Source: a virus. Taken from it: 64,000 nt of DNA. The translations under genes were made by a program, and so were the position numbers. Shown piece by piece: positions 4,988-32,204 of this stretch. Every line of letters begins with the position of its first letter. The first letter of the stretch is position 1. The stretch spans positions 1 to 64,000 of IMG/VR virus record IMGVR_UViG_3300046170_000371, one strand, 5' to 3'. The notes under the pieces are model-generated. The model was not told where the DNA came from. It searched no databases and was given only the letters and a program-made list of their open reading frames with translations.

Positions 4988-5017
4988 AGGCGTCTATCAT
5001 CGTAGGCGCCTTTTTTC
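4988..5017 (+). terminator. Rho-independent terminator upstream of the pilin gene
   Basis: A stem of AGGCG pairing with CGCCT, with partial inner pairing, is followed by six T residues. It isolates the pilin pair from upstream transcription, implying that the pilin gene has its own promoter in the AT-rich 5018-5055 stretch. Confidence 0.7.
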
Positions 5018-5055: not shown

Positions 5056-5454
5056 ATGACTAACGCATTTCTCCAGTCCGTCCTCGCTAAGAAAGCCAAC
5101 TCTAAGAAACAAAACGGCTTCACCCTTATCGAGCTGATGGTTGTCGTCGCAATCGTCGGCATCCTATCTGCTGTCGGACTACCTGAACTGACTAAAGCTC
5201 AAGACAAAGCTAAAGATAACGTTGCTGTAGCTACTCTCACCAACGCTGCTAAAGAATGTGCTCTGTCACTCATCCTCAATGGTGATGACACTGACTACAT
5301 CACTGATGAGACTGCTGGCACTGGCTGGGCAGCACAAGGTGTAACTGGCAGCTGTGATGCAGACGAAGTCCTCACAGCTAAGTCTGAAACAGAGACTGAA
5401 TGGACCATCACCTTTGTTGGCTCCACTCCTGGTACTGCAACTGAGGTTGAGTGA
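5056..5454 (+). CDS. Type IV pilin (prepilin) PilA-like protein
   Basis: A 132-residue protein with a textbook class III prepilin signal: a basic leader (KKANSKKQNG) then the cleavage site G|FTLIELMVVVAIVGILSAVG, with Phe+1, Glu+5 and a long hydrophobic N-terminal helix. The mature part is short, with two Cys residues (KECALS and GSCDAD) positioned for the pilin D-loop disulfide. The host prepilin peptidase PilD would cleave and methylate it, and the host pilus machine could assemble it. It overlaps the next gene by one base (TGATG) and is preceded by a terminator and an AT-rich leader. A phage copy of a structural pilin is unusual and probably host-derived. Confidence 0.88.
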   Translation: MTNAFLQSVLAKKANSKKQNGFTLIELMVVVAIVGILSAVGLPELTKAQDKAKDNVAVATLTNAAKECALSLILNGDDTDYITDETAGTGWAAQGVTGSCDADEVLTAKSETETEWTITFVGSTPGTATEVE

Positions 5455-6018
5455 TGAACTTAGCATCTACCATCGTTAGTGTTGCAATCATGGGAGCTTC
5501 GGCTCCTTCTATGATGCAAATGTCTATTGCTCCATATGAAGCACAACTTAAAGCAAAGAACTTAGGCATTGCTGAAACAGCTGCTGTTGTCTTTGCCTCT
5601 ACTTACGAAGGTACCCTTGATATCCCTGTCGATACAGAGACTTGCACATCAGAAGCACGAGAAGGTACTGCTAATGCTTATAGCGTTACCTGTACTCACG
5701 GCACTGACAAGTATGTACAAAGTGTTACTCGTGCTTTCCGTCTTGCTGTACCTGACACTGACTTAGACAACGGTGATGGTGCATCAACATCACGTGAGTA
5801 CGCTTACGAAACTCCTACACGCTTCTCTGGACTCTCCTGTCCCTTACTACGATGAATGGGGTACTAATGGTTATAACGACCAGTACTACAGCGTTTTAAA
5901 TGGCGCTTGTATCCCTATTCCTGTATGGACTCAAACTGCTTATCAGTTTTCTAGTCCAGATGCATGGCTCTATGACGTTAATAACTACAACGGATGGGGT
6001 ATACATCCTGACTACTAA
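5454..6018 (+). CDS. Pilin-partner / minor-pilin-like secreted protein (frameshifted in this sequence)
   Basis: The start ATG overlaps the pilin stop. Residues 1-30 are a hydrophobic segment (LASTIVSVAIMGASAPSMMQ) followed by a helical AxxAxxAAV pattern (AKNLGIAETAAVVFAS), similar to the N-terminal helix of a pseudopilin without the GFTLIE signal. The middle has Cys-containing strands. After an indel near 5826-5835 the protein continues in the next frame to GWGIHPDY, giving about 187 residues. I recall a protein of this style next to pilin genes in marine picocyanobacteria, so the two genes were probably acquired as a pair. Role in pilus assembly is inferred. Confidence 0.65.
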
Positions 6019-9395: not shown

Positions 9396-10482
9396 ATGGC
9401 TTCAACAGTATTACAACGTCAATCTGGCGTTACTTCTAACTGGGAGCAGTTTTGCAAGTGGGTAACATCAACAGACAACCGCCTCTATGTGGGTTGGTTT
9501 GGCGTGTTGATGATTCCTACGTTGCTTGCTGCAACCATCTGCTTCATTATCGCCTTCGTTGGCGCACCCCCTGTAGATATCGATGGCATTCGTGAACCAG
9601 TTGCTGGATCGCTCCTTTACGGAAATAACATTATTTCAGGAGCAGTTGTCCCGTCTTCAAACGCAATCGGACTGCACTTCTATCCCGTCTGGGAAGCAGC
9701 CACTCTTGACGAATGGCTCTATAACGGCGGACCATTCCAGCTCGTTATCTTTCACTTCCTTATCGGTATCTTCGCTTACATGGGACGCGAATGGGAACTT
9801 AGCTACCGACTAGGTATGCGCCCCTGGATTTGCGTTGCTTACTCTGCACCCGTTGCAGCAGCATCCGCAGTCTTCCTCGTCTATCCCTTCGGTCAGGGTT
9901 CTTTCTCTGACGCAATGCCACTTGGCATCTCTGGCACATTCAACTACATGTTGGTGTTCCAAGCAGAGCACAACATCCTCATGCACCCCTTCCACATGCT
10001 GGGAGTAGCAGGTGTATTCGGTGGCTCACTGTTCTCTGCAATGCACGGCTCACTCGTTACCAGTTCATTGGTGCGTGAAACCACTGAAACTGAATCACAA
10101 AACTATGGCTACAAGTTCGGACAAGAAGAAGAGACCTACAACATCGTTGCCGCTCATGGCTACTTTGGTCGACTTATCTTCCAATACGCTTCTTTTAACA
10201 ACAGCCGTAGCCTTCACTTCTTCCTTGCTGCTTGGCCAGTGGTTGGTATCTGGTTTACAGCTCTTGGTGTTAGCACCATGGCTTTTAACCTCAATGGTTT
10301 CAACTTCAACCAGTCAATTGCAGACGGTCAGGGTCGAGTCCTCAACACGTGGGCAGACGTACTGAACCGCGCTGGTCTTGGGATGGAAGTGATGCATGAG
10401 AGAAATGCTCACAACTTCCCACTAGATTTGGCAGCTGCTGAATCTACACCCTGTGGCACTGATTGCACCTTCTATTGGTTGA
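9396..10482 (+). CDS. psbA: Photosystem II D1 protein, frameshift in the C-terminal extension
   Basis: A near-complete D1 of 361 residues after correction. Tyr161 (in [11 protein letters not shown]), Asp170, His190 and His198, and the manganese-cluster ligands His332, Glu333, His337, Asp342 and Ala344 ([14 protein letters not shown]) are all present. Residue 130 is Glu (MGREWEL), as in high-light D1:2 forms. One extra C in ACACCCTG near 10450 shifts the frame just after ESTP. Removing it restores VALIAPSIG and the stop at 10482; left in place, the frame runs to 10553. The shift lies after Ala344, inside the tail removed by the CtpA protease. It keeps PSII working during infection and leads an operon with psbD and hli. 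Confidence 0.97.
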
Positions 10483-10485
10483 TTA

Positions 10486-10665
10486 ATGCAGGAGCTGGGT
10501 TTTTCATCAGACGTACCGCTAGAGATTGCGGTAGCTGGCACTCAAATCTATGAAATAGACGGTGCTGGCACTAAATGGGCACCCACTAAAGGAACCCGCA
10601 AATATAACGCTGATGCTTTCATTGTCATCCGCAAACCTACACCTGTTATATCTTCGAATGCTTGA
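10486..10665 (+). CDS. Small hypothetical protein between psbA and psbD (59 aa)
   Basis: The ATG lies four bases after the corrected psbA stop, which supports 10482 as the true end of psbA. The protein begins [20 protein letters not shown] and ends with a short Val/Ile-rich strand. It overlaps the next ORF by eight bases. Unrecognised. Confidence 0.55.
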
Positions 10666-10867
10666 ACTGATTACTTATTACGTTATTGGTGGCGCACTGC
10701 TTATCGGTGCACCAGCAATCTTCTTTCTGATTGTTTTCATGCCTGCCCTGCAGAACACTAAAGGGCGCATGGTTGGTTACAAAGACCACAAAACATACGG
10801 TGATATCTCGTCTTATGAGAACGCACCTTCAGATCAAACGACCTTTTATCTGGAGTTATCACAATGA
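10658..10867 (+). CDS. Single-pass membrane protein, possibly PsbM-like
   Basis: A 69-residue protein with one transmembrane helix ([20 protein letters not shown]) and a polar C-terminal extension. The helix pattern, small residues then Pro then FFLIV, resembles the PSII subunit PsbM, but the extension is longer than in PsbM. It is translationally coupled to psbD (ATGA), consistent with a photosystem role. Other small membrane proteins fit equally well. Confidence 0.5.
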
Positions 10868-11919
10868 CAACCGCAACATTAACCGCACCTAAAAGAGGAT
10901 ACTTTGACCTTATTGACGACTGGCTTAAACGCGATCGCTTCGTCTTTATTGGCTGGTCTGGACTCCTACTTCTACCTACTGCTTATCTGGCCATTGGTGG
11001 CTGGCTTACTGGCACGACCTTTGTCACAAGCTGGTATACCCATGGGTTGGCGTCTTCTTACCTTGAGGGCGCTAATTTTCTCACGTCAGCTGTGTCAACG
11101 CCTGCTGATGCTATGGGTCATTCTCTTCTTTTACTTTGGGGTCCTGAGTCTCAGGGCGACTTCGTCCGCTGGTGTCAACTTGGAGGGCTTTGGGCCTTTG
11201 TTGCTCTCCACGGTGCATTTGCACTGATTGGTTTCATGCTTCGGCAATTCGAAATCAGCAGACTTGTCGGCATCCGTCCGTACAACGCAATTGCATTCTC
11301 TGGACCTATCGCTGTATTCGTCAGCGTATTCCTTATCTATCCACTAGGACAGAGCAGCTGGTTCTTCGCACCATCATTTGGTGTCGCAGCAATCTTTCGC
11401 TTCCTTCTGTTCCTACAAGGCTTCCATAACTGGACGCTCAATCCATTCCACATGATGGGAGTAGCTGGCATCCTCGGTGGTGCTCTGCTATCTGCCATTC
11501 ATGGCGTAACTGTAGAGAACACACTGTATGAAGACGGCGAACAGGCTAATACCTTTAAGGCATTTGATAGCACGCAAGAAGAGGAGACTTATTCGATGGT
11601 TACTGCCAATCGCTTTTGGTCGCAAATCTTCGGTATTGCTTTCAGTAATAAGCGCTGGCTTCACTTCTTTATGCTGTTTGTACCTGTTATGGGGCTATGG
11701 ACTAGCTCCATTGGTATTATCGGTCTGGCTCTTAATCTTCGTGCTTACGATTTTGTAAGCCAAGAGATACGAGCAGCAGAAGACCCTGAGTTTGAGACGT
11801 TCTACACGAAGAACATCTTGCTTAACGAAGGTCTGCGTGCATGGCTTGCACCAGTTGACCAACCTCACGAAAACTTCATCTTCCCAGAAGAAGTATTACC
11901 ACGAGGTAACGCACTATGA
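10864..11919 (+). CDS. psbD: Photosystem II D2 protein
   Basis: An intact D2 of 351 residues: [19 protein letters not shown] near the start, [53 protein letters not shown] with the chlorophyll and iron ligand His residues, and the standard C-terminus [17 protein letters not shown]. It pairs with D1 in the PSII core. It is coupled to the upstream membrane ORF by an ATGA overlap. No indel is seen. Confidence 0.98.
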
Positions 11920-18981: not shown

Positions 18982-19368
18982 CACCTATACTTGAATTTAC
19001 TGGCAAAGATAAACAAAAGATTCAAATCCTTGAGCAAGAACTTGACCTAGAAAAATTTGATGACAAAGGATTGCCTGCTGATACCCATATGGTTACATAT
19101 GAAATCGAAGACAAGACTTTAATTGATGCTGTCCGTGCTTACAATAAGGTTGATATCTTTGATGCTTACTTTGATAAGCTTAAAGGACACTGGCAAAGTA
19201 GTAAAGATACAGTCTGGCTACGGCAATGTCCGACCAAACTTATACGGCAAGATTAAATCGACGATGACTAAACAAGACTACATTGACAAACTCGTTACTA
19301 TTGTTAAGCAGAAAGCAGAACACTGTACTGTCAAACAACTGCGAGTCTTAATTAACTCCTATAAATAA
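18978..19368 (+). CDS. Hypothetical protein with probable frameshift (about 129 aa)
   Basis: Begins [20 protein letters not shown]. The frame as given stops at 19256, but the next frame from about 19186 gives a better strand ([20 protein letters not shown]) that runs into [20 protein letters not shown] and ends at 19368. The alternative is two genes, 18978-19256 and 19264-19368 (34 aa). Unrecognised. Confidence 0.45.
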
Positions 19369-31831: not shown

Positions 31832-32204
31832 ATGAAATCTATTATTGCCGTTGCAGCTCTGTCTGCTTTGTCTGCCCCTGCTTTCGCTGGTCCTTATGCC
31901 AACATCGAAAACAATGCAGGCTGGGTTGGTGACGACTTCACCGCAGCTGTGACTGAAGTTCACGCTGGCTATGAGTTTGAAGCTAGCGATTCTGTTAGCC
32001 CTATATGTACAGGCAGGTCCTGCTTTCATCTCTATTGAAGATGAAGACTTGGAGACCGAAGTGTCTGGTAAGTTTGGTGTTACTGCCGATGTCTCAGAAT
32101 CATTCGAACTCTACGGAGAAGTCGCATTCCTCACGGAAGACCAAGAATTTGACGTGGATACCCTTACATTGGGTACCAAGGTTGGTGCCACCTACCGCTT
32201 CTGA
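31832..32204 (+). CDS. Outer-membrane beta-barrel-like protein (one frameshift)
   Basis: 123 residues after one extra C near 32001. Signal peptide MKSIIAVAALSALSAPAFAG, then alternating strands (HAGYEFEA, LYVQAGPAFISIED, FELYGEVAFLTED) and a C-terminal strand ending in Phe (VGATYRF), the signature recognised by the BAM machine. Small porin-like proteins of this kind occur in cyanophages and their hosts. It may alter the host surface, for example to block superinfection; that role is speculation. Its own terminator follows. Confidence 0.72.

Follow-up and report, generated by a model that had tools for sequence, protein, structure and literature searches.

The locus described here lies in a window comprising bases 1–64,000 of an 87,159-bp virus record. 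It consists of a type IV pilin gene, a partner gene read in two frames and a third short gene, with the photosynthesis genes psbA and psbD nearby (Table 1). Comparison with the PHROG families identified genes for a DNA polymerase I, a DNA helicase/primase and an integrase in the window. The rest of the record encodes the large subunit of a terminase (PHROG 38) and a PHROG 20475 virion protein. A 311-aa sigma-70 factor with regions 1.2, 2, 3 and 4 (PHROG 351; L198, 4280–5215) is also encoded by this record outside the window.

Table 1. Coordinates of the pilin cassette and the neighbouring features in the window.
Feature	Position	Strand	Remarks
Terminator-like hairpin closing the upstream gene	4988..5011	+	10 pairs, T-rich tail
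Type IV prepilin, 132 aa	5056..5454	+	Cleavage expected between G21 and F22; Glu+5; two invariant Cys (C68, C100)
Partner, 5' part (leaderless pilin-like half, profile 1–131)	5454..5846	+	PHROG 3415
Partner, 3' part (shifted frame, profile 129–187)	5842..6018	+	Aromatic, Cys-containing C-terminal region
Third cassette gene, 53 aa	6018..6179	+	Start overlaps the stop of the partner (TAATG); in other phages, members of the family follow the partner directly
psbA	9396..10553	+	Frame broken close to the 3' end; part of a photosynthesis island that lies near the pilin pair in ACG-2014f as well
psbD	10864..11919	+	Same photosynthesis island as psbA

The first gene of the cassette is a genuine type IV pilin. 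As the first-pass annotation of this DNA had read it, the prepilin signal (class III) is complete, with a lysine-rich basic leader, the sequence ...KQNG↓FTLIELMVVVAIVG... (the arrow marks the Gly/Phe cleavage site) and Glu at +5. A 19-residue stretch of the protein has a mean hydropathy of 2.64. The family search proposed in that annotation gave a match to the Pfam family N_methyl (PF07963) with an E-value of 2.2e-10 and 40.1 bits against a cut-off of 21.2, and residues 6–129 matched PHROG 3433, named 'pilin', with an E-value of 1.4e-33. The paired cysteines that it had pointed out proved to be invariant in 12 of 12 aligned phage pilins and in 16 of 16 when the host pilins were added. The predicted structure has the long N-terminal helix (residues 24–75) and the four-stranded sheet of a type IV pilin, and the eight best rows of the VIA-align comparison were all type IV pilins. 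The pilin fold anticipated from the sequence was thus recovered, but with a mean pLDDT of 65.6, with Z scores of 7.2 to 5.2, which lie under the tool's caution level of 8, and with no match in the PDB at E<=0.001 when Foldseek was used alone. Among the matches listed for the pilin, one came from a Pelagibacteraceae single-cell contig (AG-430-N16, L082) and was 49% identical to the window pilin over residues 3–69.

The one-base TGATG overlap reported between the first two genes is present, the pilin stop TGA occupying 5452–5454 and the partner start ATG 5454–5456. The terminator reported upstream of the pilin does exist as a hairpin, but it is weak evidence, since the stretch has three hairpins of this kind, where shuffling leads one to expect 1.8.

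The second gene had been taken for a single open frame, and this reading had to be given up. Positions 1–131 of the PHROG 3415 profile ('unknown function') aligned at 5451–5852, and positions 129–187 aligned at about 5839–6015 in another frame, which places a break at ~5.84 kb. The two-frame reading was confirmed by tblastn and by the profile search. In each of the 13 other phage loci that were read, one uninterrupted frame encodes the partner, and L008–L010 have a shorter and different C-terminus. Beyond the break, the window protein is 89% identical in amino acids to that of the contig L002 despite the other frame, and synonymous change between the two is saturated; therefore, the break is either an error or a very recent event in a gene that was functional until then. 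An error in the sequencing or assembly of the contig is likely because the reading frame of psbA in this contig is interrupted as well, close to the 3' end, and we prefer it to a programmed +1 frameshift since the DNA polymerase and helicase genes of the window are split over several ORFs, too. The frameshift is an alternative raised by the letters at the breaks: three of the four have CCC (5840–5846 in the partner, 10445–10455 in psbA, and 31996–32004), and the one at 19180–19187 is without it, the breaks at 31996–32004 and 19180–19187 being those suggested by tblastn.

The members of the partner family start with MN(L/I), followed directly by a helix that is weakly hydrophobic, its maximum being 1.48 in the window, and have an invariant proline at position 18. 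The family alignment contained no prepilin leader, no GFxxxE and no Glu+5, and the partner had no match in Pfam. The intact partner of L002 was modelled from 10 sequences with a mean pLDDT of 56.3, giving a long N-terminal helix and three strands within residues 5–96, an outline like that of a pilin; the pLDDT was under 50 in residues 1–20, and the last 90 residues were of low confidence. In VIA-align, the best row for this model was the XcpGHIJK pseudopilin filament (9a1f_R; Z 6.0, rmsd 3.5 over 95 residues) and the third was PilA5, with unrelated pantothenate synthetases within 1 of the best. No match to the model was found in the PDB by Foldseek at E<=0.001, and the sequence profile of the partner returned nothing convincing from the PDB. 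The earlier description of this protein as minor-pilin-like therefore holds in part: a conserved family is encoded beside the pilin, but the leader, the GFxxxE motif and Glu+5 expected of a minor type IV pilin are absent. By its sequence, the partner reads as a leaderless pilin-like companion, for which 'minor pilin' expresses a resemblance only; that it acts as a minor subunit assembled together with the pilin is plausible.

Distant relatives of the partner were also seen in L130 and L132 (genomes G312 and G025) and in L131 (G071). Since L130 and L132 have a second leaderless pilin-like ORF nearby (MNLVALLIAA...GAP), the leaderless family may extend beyond the pilin pair.

A third gene, absent from the earlier reading, also belongs to the cassette. 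A profile made from five homologues, to which the window row did not contribute, found it with an E-value of 3.2e-12, and its family, whose members have 53–62 aa and share the motifs A..RL and PY, has further representatives in L002, L004, L007, L008–L010, L034, L041 and L042. It was not found at E<=1 in L003, L005, L006, L011 or in the seven host loci L143–L149, and the members scanned had no PHROG match at E<=0.1. ACG-2014f has a different 60-residue gene (PHROG 3533) at this position.

The search for the pair in other cyanophages, which had been suggested as a check, was successful. Among 50,697 phage records, the pilin matched 68, of which 49 were matched over at least 80% of the length and 49 were Synechococcus phages. 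The partner matched 49 records, each of a Synechococcus phage and each over 80% or more of the length, namely 45 of ACG-2014f and 4 of S-CAM7 (RefSeq duplicates included). Pilin and partner were adjacent in all five records whose annotation was read. The first gene is labelled 'pilin' in GenBank in four ACG-2014f records and 'hypothetical protein' in MT586120, and the second is a 'hypothetical protein' in all five. The pilin query in IMG/VR gave 28 loci. Ten of them scored 170–196 bits with the phage pilin profile, had a full-length pilin and, without exception, the partner, while the other 18 scored 41–53 bits with an N-terminal match and none had the partner. It should be noted that the phage profiles were built partly from those ten loci, among which L008–L010 are near-copies, L005 is an ACG-2014f isolate, and L006 and L007 are close to each other.

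The pilin pair is thus already present and partly annotated in sequenced cyanophages. The first-pass annotation knew of no described pilin cassette in cyanophages, and our literature search, which covered the titles and the beginnings of the abstracts of open-licence papers, found no description of cyanophage pilins either; the name 'pilin', however, already stands in PHROG 3433 and in GenBank. The main text of the genome paper of these phages (PMC5112629) contains no 'pilin', 'pili' or 'hypervariab', and the text of an ocean-wide survey of phage auxiliary genes (PMC11360552) contains none of the pilus words sought.

To place the window phage, it was compared with the ACG-2014f genome KJ019091 (Kyanoviridae). 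Eight ORFs of KJ019091 matched the window (tblastn, E<=1e-10; six-frame ORFs of at least 100 residues). Four of these are the pilin, the partner, psbA and psbD, and one is antisense to psbA. We conclude from the sequence that the window phage is not a T4-like cyanomyovirus and, since it differs in this from the T4-like carriers, that the pilin module has moved between phage lineages. L002 gave us only the impression of being T4-like; its next gene had a match solely to PHROG 455, of unknown function. The pilin pair of the window ends ~3.4 kb before psbA, and that of ACG-2014f lies ~1.2 kb behind psbD.

An assembly artefact, in which the window contig would be a chimera of one phage and a fragment of another cyanophage, seems very unlikely to us, although several observations speak for it. 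L002, the nearest relative, has only the cassette in common with the window (ORFs of at least 100 aa, 9.3 kb of L002), and the frame breaks indicate an error-prone contig. In addition, when pilin and partner were sought in the stretches examined of 32 contigs with a relative of the neighbouring Dam gene, no contig carried the cassette, and the SSB gene, used as another query for sister contigs, gave no matches. Meanwhile, the GC3 of the cassette (0.376) is the same as that of the other window genes (0.371), unlike that of L002 (0.426). The window cassette is also no copy of the L002 contig, as their nucleotide identity is 80% in the pilin and 72–77% in the partner. Even if the contig were a chimera, the cassette in complete isolate genomes would be unaffected.

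For the host counterpart, the phage-partner profile was run against an even sample of 400 genomes from the family to which the cyanobacterium with L088 belongs. We take this family to be picocyanobacterial because it contains G248, which we take to be Synechococcus WH7803. The profile matched 32 genomes at E<=1, a count that fell to 10 with E<1e-5 and to 7 with E<1e-20. Of two genera, one had the partner in 5 of 31 genomes and the other in 3 of 34, where one of the three is a 22-residue match with an E-value of 6e-4. In six of the seven genomes with E<1e-20, the gene immediately before the partner, in the same orientation, encodes a pilin, which gives a positive answer to the question of host adjacency raised with the first description. 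The match is confined to the C-terminal part (residues 105–187) in G305, and to the first ~104–110 partner residues, inside longer proteins, in G279 and G297. With phage-only profiles, the six host cassette pilins ranked first among the host ORFs tested (88.7–164.1 bits, the next being 82.4), the margin over other host pilins being small for G279 and G297. In G036, the cassette pilin is the sole match to the pilin profile at E<=1e-8, a profile that itself contains the G036 pilin. Among the named genomes, a partner search by peptide patterns found none, which reflects a limit of sensitivity, since the profile search over the 400 genomes did find the partner; in a pilin scan of the named genomes, the best 80 loci listed were mostly from unrelated bacteria.

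The gene lepA adjoins the cassette in G036, G273 and G164, and in G273 and G285 the cassette has a divergent histidine kinase gene on its other flank. A histidine kinase together with an OmpR-type regulator (Response_reg plus Trans_reg_C) is found next to the pilin in G206, G273 and G285. In G248, pilA1, pilE and further genes lie between the histidine kinase and lepA. Because of these shared neighbours, the host form looks like an alternative, compact operon of the pilA1 locus, as far as gene order can indicate it. The mark of a host-derived auxiliary gene, a close host homologue in the same operon, was found for the cassette. Two changes are needed on the partner tree and the pilin tree is unresolved, so the trees do not resolve the direction and number of transfers.

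The partner was also considered as a counterpart of PilE or of SynWH7803_1797. The operon of G248 comprises pilA1, pilE and a gene for a 666-aa protein, presumably SynWH7803_1797. Both candidates were rejected, as PilE of G248 is an N_methyl pilin and the partner profile had no match in G248 at E<=0.001. The earlier likening of the partner to that of picocyanobacterial pilins is thus right in that the same pair exists in 6 of the 400 genomes, but the partner is not homologous to WH7803 PilE.

The promoters of host pilA1 and of several cassettes contain a conserved 11-bp direct repeat of about CTAAGAACCTT-CTTAGGAAGC-TTTAG. It was found in the host loci L144–L146 and L158–L187, and degenerate copies were seen in the phage loci L002–L004, L006–L008, L032 and L034. 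With a matrix of six host sites, 23 of 30 pilin loci scored at least 23.8 (17 of 24 when the loci of the matrix are set aside), and the G279 and G297 cassettes (L161 and L162) remained below this value. In the phage upstream regions, the best site reached p<0.05 in seven of nine distinct phages, 94–112 nt before the ATG, with a combined p of 1e-7; the window (p 0.74) and L011, of which 96 nt of upstream sequence were scanned, showed no such site. None of 300 column-permuted matrices reached the combined statistic of 68.1 observed over the phages (permuted mean 19.0, maximum 41.2). The reverse-complement matrix also scored high, at 41.0, because the box is partly palindromic. The test is a post hoc one, since the repeat had been seen by eye in phage and host upstream regions before the host-only matrix was made, whereas the p-values of the locus scan (0.0088 at best) are conservative, as the background windows include the sites themselves.

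We regard the repeat as a candidate binding site of the adjacent two-component regulator of the OmpR/PhoB type. Cyanobacterial Pho boxes have been described as CTTA-N7-CTTA with an 11-bp period (PMC3037559) and as 8-bp repeats with a 3-bp linker (PMC1906773); the letters of the pilA1 repeat differ from them despite the same 11-bp period. PhoB is also no obvious binder of the repeat, given the report that PilA1 abundance does not respond to P depletion (PMC7994388).

Purifying selection acts on the pilin and the partner, to judge from their coding sequences: between the window and L002, dN/dS was 0.10 for the pilin and 0.11 for the first part of the partner, and the other phage pairs computed gave 0.12–0.35. 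These values bear on the possibility that the two are passenger genes, taken up together with the photosynthesis genes nearby and hardly useful to the phage, which we already disfavour and hold to be highly improbable. Such a capture would fit the position of the pair near psbA and psbD in the window and in ACG-2014f, and its patchy occurrence across phages. It agrees poorly, however, with the low dN/dS values, with the promoter repeats in most of the distinct phages, with the genes being found as a pair and with S-CAM7, where no photosystem gene is annotated within 6 kb of them.

The variability of the pilin was measured in ACG-2014f and not in the lineage of the window, for which no second cassette-bearing member was found. 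For this, the genes of the near-identical isolates KJ019091 and KJ019105 were paired by hand from the two annotation tables, with psbD taken from the start given in its shorter annotation. Some genes were left unpaired: two ORFs that only one of the genomes has between psbA and psbD, a giant gene whose length differs greatly between the two, an ORF of 168 bp ahead of the pilin that is annotated in a single genome, and genes that lie beyond the paired stretch or are cut by its ends. The 53 paired collinear genes had a median identity of 100% in amino acids and 99.5% in nucleotides. The pilin was the most variable of all (last of 53, 58.8% amino acid identity), followed by the partner (88.8%) and, third in rank, a gene with 93.4%, while the annotated tail fibre gene of the paired stretch was outside the 12 most variable.

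The third ACG-2014f isolate has a third allele, and a fourth has the first allele (98%). Among the three isolates KJ019091, KJ019105 and KJ019099 (L195, L233 and L035), the pilins are 51–64% identical in pairs, and only 26–39% in the C-terminal part, while psbD and other neighbours are 95–100% identical in amino acids. By the identity of the partner to that of the window, the 45 ACG-2014f records fall into classes of 28, 15 and 2. Between alleles A and C, 11 of the 21 partner differences are in residues 1–33, 1 is in residues 34–100 and 9 lie beyond; differences in the N-terminal helix would be expected if the swapped tract extends there or if the helix packs against the pilin. In the C-terminal part, alleles A, B and C are 25–40% like each other, with 25–36% between C and the other two, but A is 76% like S-CAM7, which belongs to another genus, C reaches 74–75% with L006/L007, 65% with the host locus L145 and 54% with the host locus L144, and B is 49% like host L143. 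For the window pilin, the same part is 87% like that of L002, and no other pilin exceeds 44%. The genome paper gives a cautious signal of positive selection for hli03, psbA and psbD in its lineage VI (PMC5112629), which we take to be ACG-2014f. As psbA and psbD both lie beside the pilin swap, hitchhiking may be the cause of their signal.

In our best explanation, which we find on balance probable, the cassette is a two-gene major-pilin operon, of the type seen in some picocyanobacteria at or close to the pilA1 locus, that was acquired by cyanophages and passed between their lineages, and that re-types the surface of the infected cell; the molecular part of this explanation is likely. The prepilin would be cleaved after G21 by the host PilD, the companion would be inserted through its uncleaved N-terminal helix and join the fibre, and the host PilB/PilC/PilQ would assemble both. 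The phage would depend on PilD and the pilus machine of the host, as the search for a T2SSE ATPase found none in the record, which may be incomplete. The infected cell would then display a pilus of the phage allele, instead of its own or mixed with it, and competing pilus-dependent phages would no longer recognise the re-typed surface, resulting in superinfection exclusion. The variable exposed domain, the shared alleles and the host-type repeats appear to fit such re-typing better than a role in motility or DNA uptake. A fold under constraint whose exposed part is highly variable also suits display on the cell surface where recognition keeps changing. As to the purpose, surface re-typing with superinfection exclusion is our tentative first guess, and protection from grazers or sinking comes second. 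A yet slightly more tentative extension is a swappable pilin-allele locus, in which the exposed part is exchanged between phage genera and hosts within a genome that otherwise hardly changes, copies of the host pilus repeat precede the gene in most carriers, and the re-typed host pili shut out competing phages, a superinfection exclusion through antigenic switching of a host organelle. It may be added that ACG-2014f has a block of sugar-nucleotide and glycosyltransferase genes, surface-directed by annotation, before the tail fibre gene and psbA.

The phage pilin might instead act as a poison subunit that stalls the host pilus machine, removing pili as receptors or stopping DNA uptake. Some other phages shut off type IV pili with small inhibitors, which provides a precedent. 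Moreover, WH7803 is the recorded host of the S-CAM7 isolate 0809CC03, and as WH7803 (G248) appears to be without this type of partner, the phage pair would be foreign in it. We consider this mode of action rather doubtful, given that both genes are under constraint, that the two-gene pair is conserved and that the same pair serves hosts, G036 having no other match to the pilin profile at E<=1e-8.

Alternatively, the phage could keep or restore pili so that the infected cell is neither eaten nor lost from the lit layer before lysis. The PilA1/PilE pili of WH7803 are reported to slow sinking and to help in evading grazers (PMC7994388), and both the purifying selection and the pilA1-type promoter repeats fit a working pilus. 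By itself, however, such protection does not explain the variable exposed domain, as drag needs length and not sequence, and we hold it to be unlikely. Surface re-typing stays our first guess.

Most known cyanophage auxiliary genes feed metabolism, while the pilin appears to supply the subunit of a surface organelle together with its companion. What we add is the operon of the pair in hosts, its apparent movement between phage lineages, the variable and shared pilin alleles, and the degenerate host-type promoter repeats. That the pilin is the most variable gene of its neighbourhood between two isolates of a well-sampled phage species, surpassing even the tail fibre gene there, points to a contest at the cell surface, which is testable with isolated phages, and viruses carrying it may re-dress the surface of infected cells. 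The repeat offers a candidate regulatory box for the marine Synechococcus pilus, which affects sinking and being eaten.

Compared with the window, ACG-2014f and S-CAM7 (Kyanoviridae) have the same two adjacent families, with 46–50% identity in the pilin and 67–72% in the partner, and ACG-2014f likewise has the pair near psbA and psbD. Unlike these phages, the window lacks the host-type promoter repeat and has a broken partner frame; ACG-2014f also differs from it in having few ORFs in common and another gene order around psbA.

The operons of G036, G273, G285 and G164 resemble that of the phages in their full-length homologues in the same order, adjacent or overlapping. They differ in lying beside lepA and/or a two-component system and in having no homologue of the third gene, as judged from the seven host loci searched.

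A pilin with a separately encoded partner is also known from Geobacter, whose pilin has a two-gene arrangement; PDB entries 9egp and 7tgg are named 'Geopilin domain 1 protein' (Geobacter). The phage pilin, however, is of full length with its own strands, and the phage partner has its own N-terminal helix.

The PilA1–PilE pair of WH7803 (PMC7994388) is similar to the phage pair as a major pilin with a partner, located between a histidine kinase and lepA. In contrast to the phage partner, PilE is an N_methyl pilin, and the WH7803 operon has further large genes. The pilA1 promoters carry the 11-bp repeat, of which the phage promoters have degenerate copies. Finally, the cyanophage genes with PhoB boxes, that is, pstS of P-SSM2 and genes of S-PM2d (PMC10976474), differ from the pilin in the letters of the repeat and in the neighbouring regulator, but they share with it a host-type direct repeat of the OmpR/PhoB class with an 11-bp period.
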